From Zeus faber (taxonomy: Eukaryota; Chordata; Actinopteri; Zeiformes; Zeidae): a stretch of 64,000 nucleotides of DNA. This document shows, piece by piece, positions 3,001 to 46,626 of the stretch; position 1 is the stretch's first letter; the number at the start of each line of letters is the position of its first letter. Under the pieces are notes generated by a model, which worked only from the letters and a program-made list of their open reading frames with translations, was not told the DNA's origin and ran no database searches. The translations under genes and the position numbers were made by a program. The DNA lies in the NCBI GenBank assembly GCA_960531495.1, contig CAUIJY010000091.1, forward strand, positions 5,001 through 69,000, written 5' to 3'.

Positions 3001-3900
3001 CCTAACCCTAACCCTAACCCTAACCCTAACCCTAACCCTAACCCTAACCCTAACCCTAACCCTAACCCTAACCCTAACCCTAACCCTAACCCTAACCCTA
3101 ACCCTAACCCTAACCCTAACCCTAACCCTAACCCTAACCCTAACCCTAACCCTAACCCTAACCCTAACCCTAACCCTAACCCTAACCCTAACCCTAACCC
3201 TAACCCTAACCCTAACCCTAACCCTAACCCTAACCCTAACCCTAACCCTAACCCTAACCCTAACCCTAACCCTAACCCTAACCCTAACCCTAACCCTAAC
3301 CCTAACCCTAACCCTAACCCTAACCCTAACCCTAACCCTAACCCTAACCCTAACCCTAACCCTAACCCTAACCCTAACCCTAACCCTAACCCTAACCCTA
3401 ACCCTAACCCTAACCCTAACCCTAACCCTAACCCTAACCCTAACCCTAACCCTAACCCTAACCCTAACCCTAACCCTAACCCTAACCCTAACCCTAACCC
3501 TAACCCTAACCCTAACCCTAACCCTAACCCTAACCCTAACCCTAACCCTAACCCTAACCCTAACCCTAACCCTAACCCTAACCCTAACCCTAACCCTAAC
3601 CCTAACCCTAACCCTAACCCTAACCCTAACCCTAACCCTAACCCTAACCCTAACCCTAACCCTAACCCTAACCCTAACCCTAACCCTAACCCTAACCCTA
3701 ACCCTAACCCTAACCCTAACCCTAACCCTAACCCTAACCCTAACCCTAACCCTAACCCTAACCCTAACCCTAACCCTAACCCTAACCCTAACCCTAACCC
3801 TAACCCTAACCCTAACCCTAACCCTAACCCTAACCCTAACCCTAACCCTAACCCTAACCCTAACCCTAACCCTAACCCTTAACCCTAACCCTAACCCTAA
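1..3900 (-). repeat. Terminal telomere array, (CCCTAA)n / (TTAGGG)n
   Basis: About 650 tandem hexamers form the chromosome cap. The + strand is C-rich from the first base, so the TTAGGG strand runs 5'->3' towards base 1, the correct polarity for a left end. In a eukaryote this is the telomerase product and the binding platform for shelterin-type proteins. The array is essentially free of variant repeats. The only irregularity I see is one extra T at 3879-3880, four hexamers before the array stops. The last CTAA (3897-3900) is also native sequence of the adjoining 318-bp repeat, so the boundary sits on 4 bp of microhomology. The true length is unknown, since the window may start inside the array. 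Confidence 0.98.
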
Positions 3901-4292
3901 AAATAAACCTTATAATGAATTAATCTTCATAACAAACAAACTAACCGTAACCCGGAGTCTATCCCAATATACTTAATCAAACATTACCGGATTAATATAA
4001 CCCACTACCACCTAGGACCAATTAGAATTTATGCCCGAACAAAATAACCCAAACAATTTAACTCACAAACCTTTTTTTCACTCTCTTCCCTTTCTCTCAT
4101 GAAAATGAGAGAGTTGGGACGGTAGAGAACAGCCCGAACAGGCAGGAGGAGAATGCAGTCCGAACAGACGGCTCTCCTTCCCTCTACCTCCCTCCTACCT
4201 CCCTCTTGCTCCTTCTAAAAATAAACCTTATAATGAATTAATCTTCATAACAAACAAACTAACCGTAACCCGGAGTCTATCCCAATATACTT
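3897..4292 (+). repeat. Distal 318-bp subtelomeric repeat, about 1.2 copies
   Basis: A full unit (3897-4214) is followed by the first 78 bases of a second, ending after CCCAATATACTT (4281-4292). The same unit occurs four times in a row at 40926-42209, where the 318-bp period is exact. Each unit holds a T-rich tract, a GAAA-capped hairpin (4093-4112 here), a purine-rich stretch with GGCAGGAGGAG, and a pyrimidine-rich end. About 130 bp around the hairpin are also present in every 1.7-kb unit (for example 10425-10553). No open frame of note lies here. The telomere is joined directly inside the unit. Confidence 0.93.
4093..4112. other. GAAA-tetraloop hairpin in the 318-bp repeat
   Basis: TCTCTCAT, GAAA loop, ATGAGAGA: an 8-bp perfect stem capped by a GNRA-type loop. 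The counterpart in the 1.7-kb units is TCTCTCAG-GAAA-CTGAGAGA (10449-10468 and every later unit). The loop-closing pair changes from T-A to G-C on both sides, so pairing is kept. Further copies lie at 41056-41075 and +318 steps. Whether it acts as DNA or RNA cannot be told from sequence. Confidence 0.75.
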
Positions 4293-5055
4293 GGTAAACC
4301 CTCAACACATTCCCAACCCTAACCCTAACCCTAACCCTAACCCTAACCCTAACCCCTAACCCTAACCCTTAACATATTCCTAACCCTAACCCAAACCCTA
4401 ACCCTAACCCTAACCCAAACCCTAAACCCTAACCCTAACCCTTAACACGAGTCCTTGAATCCAAACCTAACCCTAACCCTAACCCCTACCCTTAACACAT
4501 TCCTAACCCTAACCCTAACCCTAACCCTATTAACCCTTACCCAATCCTGAATCCGGACCTAAACCCTAAACTTAACCCCTACCCTCAACACATTCCCAAC
4601 CCTAACCCTAACCCTAACCCCAACCCCAACCTTAAGCTTAACTAACCCCAACCTAACTCTGAATCTAAACCTAACCCCAACCCCTACCCTAACCATATTC
4701 CCCACCCTAACCCTAACCCTAACCCCTAACCCCTAACCCTAACCCTAACCTAGCCCTAAACCTAACCCTAAAACTAACCCTAGCCCTGGTTCTAAACCTA
4801 ACCCTAACGTTTACCCTAAGACCTAGCCCTAAACCCGACCCTAAACCTAACCCTAGCGCTTAACCTAACCCTAAACCTAACCCTAAACTTAACCCTCAAT
4901 CCAACCCTAAACTTAACCCTCAATCTAACCCTAAACTTAACCCTCAATCTAACCCTAAACCTAACCCTAAACCTAACCCTAAACCTAACCCTAAACCTAG
5001 CCCTGAGCCTAACCTTAGACCTAACCCTAAACCTAACCTTAGCTCTAAAACCATC
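4293..5055 (-). repeat. Degenerate telomeric sequence, distal cassette
   Basis: A run of CCCTAA-like hexamers and drifted variants (CCTAAA, CTTAAC, CCTAGC, CTCAAT) keeping the same polarity as the terminal telomere. The stretch starts with GGTAAACCCTCAACACATTC and ends before the T-rich tract at 5070. Decay is graded: nearly pure blocks at 4315-4360 and alternating CCTAAA/CCCTAA near 4840-5000. On the minus strand it reads as an 83-residue Arg/Val/Phe/Leu repeat peptide (4816-5067), which is simply translated telomeric DNA. The sequence has a close copy at 42210-42975 and a shorter relative in every 1.7-kb unit (for example 10587-10852). Confidence 0.93.
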
Positions 5056-5340
5056 ACTGTTACCCAATCTTTTTTATATATAAAAAAAACGTAACAAAAA
5101 AAACCCCACCCCTTTCCCCAACCCTAAAATCTCTAATTACTACAGATGTAGTTAAAATGAATAGTTATGTGGGAAGGTTTGTTTTTATATATATATATTT
5201 TTTTTCTCATATATATATTTTTTTTATTATGTTTTTATTATATTTTTTTTATATATATTTTTTTATATATTTATAGATTTTTTCTAAATTATTTATGTAT
5301 TTATTTATTAGTTTTTTCTATTTATTTATATATTTATATA
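5056..5340. repeat. AT-rich low-complexity tract
   Basis: Short A and T homopolymers and TATATA tracts flank about 90 bp of ordinary sequence with a C-rich patch (5103-5125). From 5180 to 5340 it is almost wholly T-rich with alternating TA, a likely easily unwound region. It separates degenerate telomere from the CpG-dense segment. The other copy (42976-43262) differs mainly in homopolymer length: A8 plus A8 near 5084-5104 is replaced by A46 at 42986-43031. No gene seen. Confidence 0.85.
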
Positions 5341-44761: not shown

Positions 44762-44862
44762 AAAGTCTAAGGAAAAGAATATCCTACCAACGTATAAAGG
44801 TCGTACCCAAATGCAACGAAATCCAACGAACAATTTTTTTTTTTAAATAAAACCAATTGACC
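43578..44862. other. Cassette-only block, proximal copy
   Basis: Copy of 5690-6942 at a constant offset of 37888 for most of its length. It contains the multi-hairpin foldback (44030-44229) and the diverged 123-bp-like repeats (about 44538-44862). An A28 run (44731-44758) replaces A8 (6843-6850). Open frames of 62-67 codons (43732-43929, 44086-44291) match the distal copy and are not recognised. Divergence is very low, so this block was duplicated recently or is kept uniform by exchange. Confidence 0.75.
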
Positions 44863-45035
44863 GGGGGACACACACCAGGGTCTTGATCAAACCCAGGTGG
44901 CCTGCCTCAAGGAGAGGGTGTATAGTTTGTTTAAAAGGCTGAAACACTCAATGATCCTGAGGTACACTACTGATGAATGTGTCCTAAATTCCTAAAAGTA
45001 ATCATATGGAAATTCAGAGAAAGAAGAAACAGGGT
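44863..45035. repeat. 173-bp conserved core element, proximal cassette
   Basis: Same sequence type as 6943-7115, including the TTGATCAA variant within the hairpin region (CTTGATCAAACCC), whereas the array units read CTTGACGAAGCCC. This cassette-type spelling separates the two cassette cores from all array cores. Confidence 0.8.
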
Positions 45036-46570
45036 GCGCTTAACCATCCGTAACAACTTGAAACAAAAAACAATAAGGTGTACCTAACCACGCTTAAACT
45101 CGTAATAAAAAACAAACAAGGTTTTCTTACCATCCGTAACAACTTTAAACAAGAAACTAACAAGGTGTACTTAACCACGCTTAAACCCGTAATAAGGAAC
45201 AAACAAGGTGTTCTGAACCAATCCGTAAAAACTTGAAACAGAAACAAATAAGGTGTACCTAACCACGCTTAAACCCGTAACCAAAAAAACAAACAAGGTG
45301 ATCTTAACCATCCGTAACAACTTTAAACAAGAAACTAACAAGGTGTACCTAACCACGCTTAAACCCGTAATAAGGAACAAACAAGGTGTTCTGAACCAAT
45401 CCGTAAAAACTTGAAACAGAAACAAATAAGGTGTACCTAACCACGCTTAAACCCATAACCAAAAAAACAAACAAGGTGATCTTAACCATTCGTAACAACT
45501 GGAAACAAAAACAAACAAGGTTTATTTAACCACGCTTAAACCCATAACAAATGAACACCCAAATAAAACAAATAGGGTGTTCTTAACCATCCATAAACAA
45601 CTGGAAACAAAAACAAACAAGGTGTATTTAACCACGTTTAAACCCAGAACAAAAAACAAACAAAACGTTCTTAACCATCCGCAACAACTTGAACAGGAAC
45701 CTAACTCTCTACCTAACATAATACGGGATTGGAGAATCTTGATAACGTGCGACGGCCCGTGCATTACCTTTGGTCCCCTATACCAAACTGCCCATGCTGG
45801 CCAGGGGGGAACATAGGAATAGTACTCACCAATACATGCCAGGATACCCAACTGGGTAAACGGAATCATCTATACAGTACTCAACAAACCCAAATCAAAA
45901 AACAATAAGGTGTACCTAACCACGCTTAAACTCGTAATAAAAAACAAACAAGGTTTTCTTACCATCCGTAACAACTTTAAACAAGAAACTAACAAGGTGT
46001 ACTTAACCACGCTTAAACCCGTAATAAGGAACAAACAAGGTGTTCTGAACCAATCCGTAAAAACTTGTAACAGAAACAAATAAGGTGTACCTAACCACGC
46101 TTAAACCCGTAACCAAAAAAACAAACAAGGTGATCTTAACCATCCGTAACAACTTTAAACAAGAAACTAACAAGGTGTACTTAACCACGCTTAAACCCGT
46201 AATAAGGAACAAACAAGGTGTTCTGAACCAATCCGTAAAAACTTGAAACAGAAACAAATAAGGTGTACCTAACCACGCTTAAACCCGTAACCAAAAAAAC
46301 AAACAAGGTGTATTTAACCACGTTTACACCCAGAACAAAAAACAAACAAAACGTTCTTAACCATCCGCAACAACTTGAACAGGAACCTAACTCTCTACCT
46401 AACATAATACGGGATTGGAGAATCTTGATAACGTGCGACGGCCCGTGCATTACCTTTGGTCCCCTATACCAAACTGCCCTTGCTGGCCAGGGGGGAACAT
46501 AGGAAAAGTACTCACCAATACATACCAGGCTACCCAAACTGGGTAGACGGGATCATCAATACAGTACTCA
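45036..46570 (+). repeat. Layered 59/178/832-bp repeat, proximal cassette
   Basis: Two higher-order units against three in the distal cassette; closing CAGTACTCA at 45875 and 46562. The first unit has one more 178-bp subunit than its distal counterpart (804 against 626 bp between matching sites). The second is about 146 bp shorter than the 833-bp distal unit, through a direct fusion near 46305 that joins two monomers and creates a longer minus-strand frame (46181-46537). The last element is the HOR/array chimera with the private T at 46480. Confidence 0.9.
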
Positions 46571-46626
46571 ACCAACCTAACCCTAACCTCATCAATACAG
46601 TACTCACCCAACCCTAACCCTAACCC
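46571..46626. other. Telomere-seeded junction between cassette and array 2
   Basis: After CAGTACTCAACCAACC come CTAACCCTAACC, then a second copy of ATCAATACAGTACTCACCCA (46589-46608), then about three CCCTAA repeats, then TTTCCTAAAATAAACC, which is the interior of the 1.7-kb unit. Two short telomeric fillers thus bracket a repeated end motif. The distal cassette has a different filler at this place (ACCAACTCAACCAACC, about 9461-9476). Confidence 0.8.

Follow-up and report, generated by a model that had tools for sequence, protein, structure and literature searches.

The Y' elements of Saccharomyces cerevisiae have defined borders on both sides. At the junctions between tandem Y' elements, a telomere tract, mostly of 20 to 500 bp, is found in 145 of 234 cases, and both the acquisition and the amplification of these elements require homologous recombination, including break-induced replication (PMC13177704, excerpt). 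In the TALT1 and TALT2 systems of C. elegans, a block lying between like-oriented interstitial telomere sequences (ITSs) is copied in cis and in trans onto chromosome ends (PMC4595603, excerpt). The MoTeR elements of Magnaporthe have 3' telomere repeats and form head-to-tail arrays with interstitial telomeres and with distal truncations that are healed; further gains arise by break-induced replication, and a 1.7-kb member shares both ends with a longer one (PMC7367193, excerpt). Finally, after transient uncapping in yeast cdc13-1 cells, end units are lost, gained, or duplicated terminally (PMC13022453, excerpt).

The stretch of Zeus faber DNA analyzed here (the window; 64,000 nucleotides) is part of contig C94 of an 803-Mb genome and shares features with each of these systems. 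As with Y', there are tandem units of several kilobases at chromosome ends, many of which are separated by telomere tracts some tens to hundreds of base pairs long (PMC13177704, excerpt); unlike Y' elements, which carry ORFs, the present units gave no sign of coding capacity, they are cut at varying points on the distal side, and the scars adjoin many kinds of stump. The resemblance to TALT, in which a nontelomeric block is flanked by interstitial telomere tracts of like orientation, is a real architectural one (PMC4595603, excerpt). However, TALT was amplified in telomerase-deleted survivors, whereas the present genome contains a telomerase domain and its layers are numerous and diverse. The comparison with C. 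elegans ALT lines drawn in the initial annotation is supported for the architecture; telomerase-less ALT is not supported. The head-to-tail arrays, interstitial telomeres, healed distal truncations, and 1.7-kb member recall MoTeR (PMC7367193, excerpt), but MoTeR1 encodes a reverse transcriptase, none of which was found in the present unit, and the latter is made of tandem repeats. A comparable loss, gain, and terminal duplication of such units follows cdc13-1 uncapping (PMC13022453, excerpt), in cells that presumably have telomerase; those events were induced in the laboratory over multiple generations, whereas the present case is a natural record.

All features of the window listed in this paragraph lie on the forward strand. 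Preceded in the contig by 5000 N, a nearly pure (CCCTAA)n terminal telomere (1..3896) sits directly on the distal edge of unit 1, a 318-bp repeat cut at its own position ~260 (3897..4273), with CTAA common to both by eye. Unit 1 continues with a degenerate telomere block (4297..5055), an AT/CpG-rich core (5338..6672), a layered repeat that terminates with the element end CAATACAGTACTCA-ACCAAC (7110..9468), and, across a joint without telomere, a 1703-bp tandem array that also ends at the element end (9513..40858). This array spans 31 kb, with 18 copies that are 99.94 to 100% alike and a partial copy, a number that the assembly may misstate. It is followed by a 70-bp interstitial scar of (CCCTAA)n in terminal polarity (40859..40928), with the left form CCCACCC and, as its right partner, the 318-bp repeat at its own position 11, the two sharing CCC. 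Unit 2 then comprises four 318-bp repeats, the first truncated (40929..42190), a degenerate telomere block (42214..42960), a core (43263..44560), a layered repeat (45020..46570) up to the element end at 46557 to 46570, two short telomere scars (46571 to 46588 and 46607 to 46627; 46571..46627 overall) with an 18-bp fragment of the element end between them, and a 1.65-kb array (46628..64000). The initial annotation had described two subtelomeric units in head-to-tail order with a same-polarity CCCTAA tract between them, and both points were borne out: units starting at 3897 and 40929 have the same orientation and the same order of 318-bp repeat, degenerate telomere, core, layered repeat, and ~1.7-kb array, and the self-comparison that it proposed aligned 41814 to 45504 with 3897 to 7605 at 95.3% identity over 3764 columns in self-BLAST. 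Its second unit, given as 40926 to 64000, is present but does not end there, since the array runs past the window to window coordinate ~71,992.

Deeper layers of the same contig are given here in window coordinates. Below the unit 2 array lie a 39-bp scar (71,993 to 72,031) and a 1.628-kb array, followed by a 96-bp scar (~104,079 to 104,174) on a core cut near its own position 391, with a layered repeat and then a short 1.69-kb array below it. The deepest scar (18 bp; 110,604 to 110,621) lies on a 208-bp satellite and is common to C94 and C7R, the exact 33-mer occurring nowhere else in the genome. The stack above it differs between C7 and C94. C94 is cut and capped ~64 bp inside the core of C7R. 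In the core part compared, the C94 copy differs from those of C10R, C12R, and C17R at 3 of 908 sites and from that of C7R, which is thus farther, at 5 of 908.

In a genome-wide pattern search, the proximal element end CAATACAGTACTCA met telomere repeats at 209 places, versus none for the reversed-pattern control, and the exact left form of the window was found at 48 places. The first 100 joints listed of the 209 fall on 17 contig ends with consistent polarity; among these 100, every forward joint is at a contig position under 93 kb and every reverse joint at one beyond 31.6 Mb. This pattern presets the left side by design; the left side was tested by a free scan of 268,921 bp, in pieces chosen near hits, for perfect tracts of at least 24 bp with no left end assumed. 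The 40 tracts recovered comprised 2 terminal tracts, 13 with the element end at their left, 25 in a degenerate context, and none of any other kind. Read row by row, 22 of the 25 lie in the unit's own block and 3 continue one of the 13; pure internal tracts of at least 24 bp outside the unit's degenerate-telomere block have the element end at their left in every case in these 268,921 bp. None of the 40 tracts in the scan is reversed, and head-to-head fusion was rejected on this ground. That the assembly joined different ends is very improbable: C94 (178,000 bp) and C89 (141,000 bp) are both small and begin with 5000 N, and a near-identical 31-kb array exceeds usual accurate read lengths, but this reading is opposed by 209 joints of one kind, the consistent polarity on the 17 ends of the first 100 listed, and the recurrence of the deepest C94 scar on C7.

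Tandem subtelomeric units parted by telomere tracts of outward polarity, a unit between like-oriented interstitial telomere tracts on several chromosome ends, and a constant proximal (3') end with variable distal truncation were all found. In the 96 joints parsed, 85 right sides were readable and fell into 74 distinct kinds. The left joint occurs in 11 small forms and is therefore not one founder faithfully copied. Seven right sides are common to different ends, five of them in telomere-like stretches, where recurrence is possible; of the other two, one (C5R and C12R) has an identical left form at both ends. A right side outside telomere-like sequence is common to C7L and C7R, with differing left forms and scar lengths.

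The initial annotation took the window to hold one whole subtelomere present twice and proposed comparison with other ends of the assembly, which yielded the same joint type at 209 places and, on C10, a unit nearer to unit 2 than unit 1 is. The unit 2 core has 39 other scored matches at 99 to 100% in the genome (132 candidates). Among the 16 cores compared of these 132 (gaps ignored), the unit 2 core differs from the C10 unit core at 1 of 1298 sites and from the unit 1 core at 5 of 1298; unit 1 differs from C10R at 4 of 1298, a slight margin relative to its distance from unit 2. Identity among array units is 99.99% in unit 1, 99.94% in unit 2, and 98.75% when the two arrays are compared with each other (gaps ignored), and homogeneity shows no age gradient with depth (99.99, 99.94, and 99.97% within three arrays). 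Judged from these sequences, neither unit is likely to be a copy of the other, and duplication of a whole subtelomere is unsupported because unit 2 is nearer to the C10 unit than to unit 1 and its distal side is a truncation. Tandem duplication in place, by unequal sister exchange or a rolling circle, is clearly at work elsewhere: on C10 the cores are spaced by exactly 6234 bp in four instances, on C17 by 6537 bp in two, and on C25 by 7144 bp in two, and C89 cores are 0 or 1 difference apart. As the origin of the window's two units it is very improbable, as their cores, array sequences, and array periods are not the same and the nearer relative of unit 2 is on C10.

Microhomology between the right side and the telomere repeat averages 2.48 bp over 33 distinct breakpoints, versus 0.84 bp expected by simulation, and none of 5000 simulated means was as high; it is 2.10 bp over 39 breakpoints when zero is entered for six rows that align poorly. 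Broken stumps thus carry telomere joined to them directly at short microhomology, and cut units capped directly by telomere form the living termini in all three telomere-carrying cases read (C94, C10R, and C89), the C89 cap sharing only 1 bp by eye. The right breakpoints fit telomerase healing, although microhomology end joining would look alike. It is conceivable, if unlikely, that a fragile internal tract by the element end breaks and that the freed unit with its telomere joins any stump by microhomology, with no need of a healing step. Such end-joining capture would explain the constant left end, scar lengths varying down to zero, telomere-free joints, and the right-side microhomology, but healed, uncovered stumps are the living ends at 3 of the 3 telomere-carrying termini read, and one right side with two left forms on different ends would require an extra exchange step.

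Joints of the element end that lack telomere include, in the fetched pieces, 10 copies of ACCAAC|GTATCCC and 3 of ACCAAC|TTTAATG; these are not explained by telomere homology alone. On C10, C12, and C17, the element end meets the 318-bp repeat without telomere, with another left allele and the native TATCCC kept, which rules out that this joint is a simple shrinkage of a window-type scar. The contiguous version of the joint at 40859, with the element end directly on AATATACTTGAT, has no exact match in the genome; this absence, together with the other left allele and native TATCCC on C10, C12, and C17, led us to reject insertion of an ITS into an unbroken site during repair.

The longest ORF listed in 40859 to 48280 is of 118 aa, none of the 10 ORFs given (22 listed) in the unit has a Pfam match at E values up to 1, and Rfam gave no match in 40000 to 50000; the same ORF listing and Pfam searches found no Y' helicase ORF, reverse transcriptase, or gag within the unit. 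That the unit is a noncoding, telomere-targeted retroelement, its fixed 3' end reverse transcribed from the chromosome's own 3' end and its distal (5') truncations healed later, like MoTeR, SART/TRAS, and HeT-A, is quite unlikely. The fixed proximal and variable distal ends, joints with and without telomere, and the end block common to the long unit and the 1.7-kb unit agree with it, as does a weak signal in the last 82 nt of the element, which fold somewhat better than shuffles (z = −2.78) in one of four folds tried (the others giving −0.45, −0.25, and 0.10). Against it stand the short ORFs and empty domain searches in the unit and layers of up to 37 kb of tandem arrays, far above the usual retroelement length. 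A related, rather unlikely idea is that CAATACAGTACTCA is the true mobility terminus of an enzyme-less, noncoding subtelomeric element, repeatedly attached to healed or bare stumps, with a host reverse transcriptase perhaps priming on the chromosome end; this would place a mobile end element beside telomerase.

The window's end is best read as a stack of old broken ends, each sealed by telomere and later overlain by freshly copied end DNA. We consider it reasonably probable that such ends are rebuilt by repeated truncation, telomere healing, and capture of distal units through telomere-repeat homology. In favor of this are the 209 joints set beside the empty reversed-pattern control, the free scan, the 74 kinds of right side, the right-breakpoint microhomology, the three capped termini, the right side with two left forms on C7L and C7R, the deepest scar common to C94 and C7R together with the C94 cut inside the C7R core, and the Telomerase_RBD match. 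Against it count the telomere-free joints, the 11 left forms, the microhomology that end joining would also leave, the location of most shared right sides in telomere-like stretches, the C94 core copy being nearer to C10R, C12R, and C17R than to C7R, and the 1-bp C89 cap. The chromosome end would be cut back to an arbitrary point, and new telomere repeats would cap the stump, starting where a few bases agree with it; the cutting and the capping are both read from the anatomy. Capture is the step that we infer: the repeat end of a short or broken telomere would pair with an internal telomere tract or telomere-like vestige immediately within a subtelomeric unit's fixed proximal end, on its own or another chromosome, and break-induced replication or exchange would copy the donor out to its tip. 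What persists of the old telomere would be a scar between the constant element end and the old stump. Captured units and the 1.6- to 1.7-kb repeats would then expand in place, as is partly evident from constant periods and from units that are almost the same. The 1.7-kb repeat has the look of an older unit that shrank and was joined end to end. The earlier proposal that a distal unit was added to an already capped end, here a shortened one, fits well, but the event is not unique, given the 209 places, and duplication of a complete subtelomere is not supported. An ALT-like route that dispenses with telomerase is unsupported: a Telomerase_RBD match lies on C1 (E = 3.7 × 10−34; one TAA within the matched stretch) and speaks against it, terminal telomere runs reach at least 3.9 kb on C94 and ~10.4 kb on C89, and the right breakpoints fit telomerase healing.

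On this reading, ordinary chromosome ends preserve, stacked in order, the natural events by which ends broke and were repaired. About 200 scars, in a single genome with a telomerase domain of its own, offer a readable record of end breaking and rebuilding, by which the frequency of natural end breaks and the start sites of new telomeres become directly testable. Recombination-based renewal of ends likewise becomes testable in healthy germlines, beyond telomerase mutants or tumors.

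The contig that holds the window at its positions 5,001 to 69,000 (C94; 178,000 bp, of which the first 5,000 are N) ends in a pile of subtelomeric units. The initial annotation had described a whole subtelomere present twice, head to tail, with an old telomere scar in between. Tandem repeat and self-BLAST maps bore out the module order and the CCCTAA tract of the same polarity at 40859 to 40928, and both copies are present, but they are only the uppermost part of a pile that goes further down, and both are composites. Read inward, at least 3.9 kb of terminal telomere at the 5' edge of the window is followed by unit 1 (318-bp repeat cut at position ~260, degenerate telomere, core, layered repeat, and the constant proximal "element end"), a 1,703-bp array, the 40859-to-40928 scar, unit 2 (the same modules, with the 318-bp repeat cut at position 11), two short scars within 46571 to 46627, a 1.65-kb array, and a 39-bp scar (71,993 to 72,031; window coordinates above 64,000 continue along the contig). 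Below these lie a 1.628-kb array that begins mid-unit, a 96-bp scar (about 104,079 to 104,174) sitting on a core cut near position 391, a layered repeat, a short 1.69-kb array, the deepest scar on C94 (18 bp; 110,604 to 110,621), and, from 110,622 onward, a 208-bp satellite that also shows higher-order periodicity at 612 and 820 bp and that C94:172,001-172,600 still resembles by eye. Contigs C94 and C89 (141,000 bp) both begin with 5,000 N and have whole-thousand lengths, the look left by cutting in scaffolding or by masking.

The C94 arrays (window positions 9513 to 40166 and two deeper) are 99.94 to 99.99% alike within a layer and 98.5 to 98.75% alike between layers, gaps ignored, with repeat lengths of 1,703, about 1,648, and 1,628 bp; each layer has been homogenized separately. 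Once the 1.7-kb repeat is rotated at the element end, it proves colinear with the unit as a whole, matching the 318-bp repeat end plus degenerate telomere at 74%, the core end plus layered repeat start at 77%, and the end block at 98%; by this likeness it would most simply be an older, shrunken unit that was tandemly expanded.

At all of the listed C94 scars, read inward, CAATACAGTACTCA and a few further bases stand directly before the telomere tract. A pattern search of 803,497,848 bases in 153 contigs recovered an element end followed by telomere repeat at 209 places (75 forward and 134 reverse); the reversed-pattern control over the whole genome recovered none in either direction. The first 100 of these joints fall on 17 ends of 16 contigs (C7 at both ends), every forward one below contig position 93 kb and every reverse one above 31.6 Mb, end placement on C13 to C16 being read from position alone rather than from total length. 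Because the joint pattern fixes the left side, contiguous DNA (268,921 bp, in pieces picked near hits) was also scanned for any perfect tract of at least four repeats. This yielded 40 tracts, namely, 2 terminal, 13 with an element end on the left, and 25 in degenerate context (by our own reading, 22 belong to the degenerate block of the unit itself and 3 extend one of those 13 tracts); among them, none had another left side and none was reversed.

We read 96 joints (82 of the 100 listed and 14 on C94, C89, and C72), of which 11 extend beyond the fetched piece and 85 are readable on the right. By their first 16 bases these have 74 distinct right sides, a count that may be somewhat high because not every boundary within degenerate telomere is sharp. 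The right side is unit body (29), one of two 1.7-kb unit types (28 and 14), 318-bp repeat (3), satellite (2), or other DNA (9), and the scars have a median length of 79 bp (range, 11 to 272 bp). The bases closing the element end are CCCAACC (38), CCCACCC (25), CCCAACCC (10), ACCAACC (8), or one of seven rarer forms; CCCACCC, the form at the 40859-to-40928 scar, occurs 48 times genome-wide. On C4 (37,919,980 to 37,920,690), three successive scars spaced 136 to 145 bp apart have between them only the element's final ~60 bp, which is the whole process in miniature.

Truncation and healing of ends are read from the anatomy. Forty-three joints with right breakpoints in nontelomeric reference sequence were aligned; with 4 repeats and 6 poor alignments dropped, the remaining 33 share a mean of 2.48 bp with the telomere tract, versus 0.84 bp when breakpoints and phases are drawn at random (0 of 5,000 simulated means as high). 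With the six poor alignments included at a score of zero, the mean is 2.10 bp (n = 39; 0 of 20,000 as high). At the termini that carry telomere today on C94, the right end of C10 (C10R; L and R denote contig ends), and C89, telomere directly abuts a unit, truncated at a separate point in each case, with 4, 6, and 1 bp, respectively, common to both by eye. No terminal telomere is seen at the four further contig ends that were read (C12R, C7R, C2R, and the start of C72). A Telomerase_RBD match on C1 (E = 3.7e-34) contains one TAA, which could mark an intron.

Onto such a healed end, a distal unit would be captured via telomere-repeat homology; we infer this step because the left end is constant, the polarity is outward, and the scars show shuffling between ends. 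Eleven right sides were each seen twice among the 85, and 7 of these are common to different ends (C7R/C94 left aside), with the left form differing in 6 and the scar length in all 7; 5 of the 7 fall within telomere-like sequence, where the same right side could arise more than once. As for the remaining two, GTTTTCTTACCATCGG, with a shared variant base, follows ACCAACC and a 36-bp scar on C7L and CCCACCC and an 80-bp scar on C7R, and TTGTTTAAAAGGCTGA has CCCAACC as its left form at C5R (31-bp scar) and again at C12R (129-bp scar). This small sample fits exchange inside the scar.

The main thing that such capture leaves unexplained is that the ACCAAC element end is also joined without telomere to several partners, namely, 318-bp repeat, core, layered repeat, and 1.7-kb unit (pieces L089, L090, and L091, C7R, and C89). 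Two rivals therefore stay alive, and these joints speak for both: end joining of distal pieces onto broken stumps, and the unit being a telomere-targeted retroelement. The unit yielded no coding sequence (118 aa for the longest of the open reading frames listed), none of 10 open reading frames tested matched Pfam, and no Rfam family was found. The last 82 nt of the unit (window positions 46500 to 46581) form a stem-loop with CTACCCAAACTGGGTAG inside AGTACT...AGTACT (z = -2.78 against shuffles, one of four folds tried; the others gave -0.45, -0.25, and 0.10).

Amplification in place happens too, as exact core periods show on C10 (34,448,251 to 34,474,480; 6,234 bp), C17 (31,624,924 to 31,639,291; 6,537 bp), C25 (48,490 to 64,071; 7,144 bp), and C13 (4,235 to 31,365; 6,807 bp); these blocks, each end with its own period, are recent local amplification. 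Where read, units in the C10 and C17 blocks are joined without telomere. In a comparison of 16 cores, local tandem pairs on C89 are 0 or 1 difference apart. Units 1 and 2 of the window differ at 5 of 1,298 sites, with unit 2 at 1 and unit 1 at 4 of 1,298 from C10R; judged by these distances, neither unit is likely to have been copied from the other.

Kim et al. 2019 reportedly deals with how new subtelomeres form in C. elegans. The nearest known systems are yeast Y' elements (PMC13177704), C. elegans TALT (PMC4595603), and Magnaporthe MoTeRs (PMC7367193), and a yeast uncapping study (PMC13022453) was also compared. A nematode review states that interstitial tracts can serve uncapped ends as a synthesis start (PMC9071541). 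Among the titles and abstract openings of the papers listed, a scope with most subscription journals outside it, we found no genome-wide stack of healed, buried ends of this kind.

The exact 33-mer of the deepest C94 scar has a single other occurrence, on C7 at 36,035,680. Beside this scar C94 and C7R are identical over 1,154 bp, and farther out they differ at 6 sites in 4,742 bp without gaps, C94 having one more 1.69-kb copy. About 22 kb deeper, the best satellite identity is 97.9% over 1,959 bp, a match bounded by the end of the C94 sequence used and ~320 bp off the expected offset; other registers give 90 to 93% over longer stretches. In its core part, however, C94 is closer to C10R, C12R, and C17R (3/908) than to C7R (5/908). 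The simplest reading is that C94 and C7R would be two haplotypes of the same end, though one end may instead have been copied recently onto another. The C7R core runs to position 327, where it joins an element end, whereas the C94 core stops near 391, followed by telomere and then another array. On the two-haplotype reading, C94 would therefore have lost its outer part, gained a telomere cap, and been covered over once the haplotypes had diverged.
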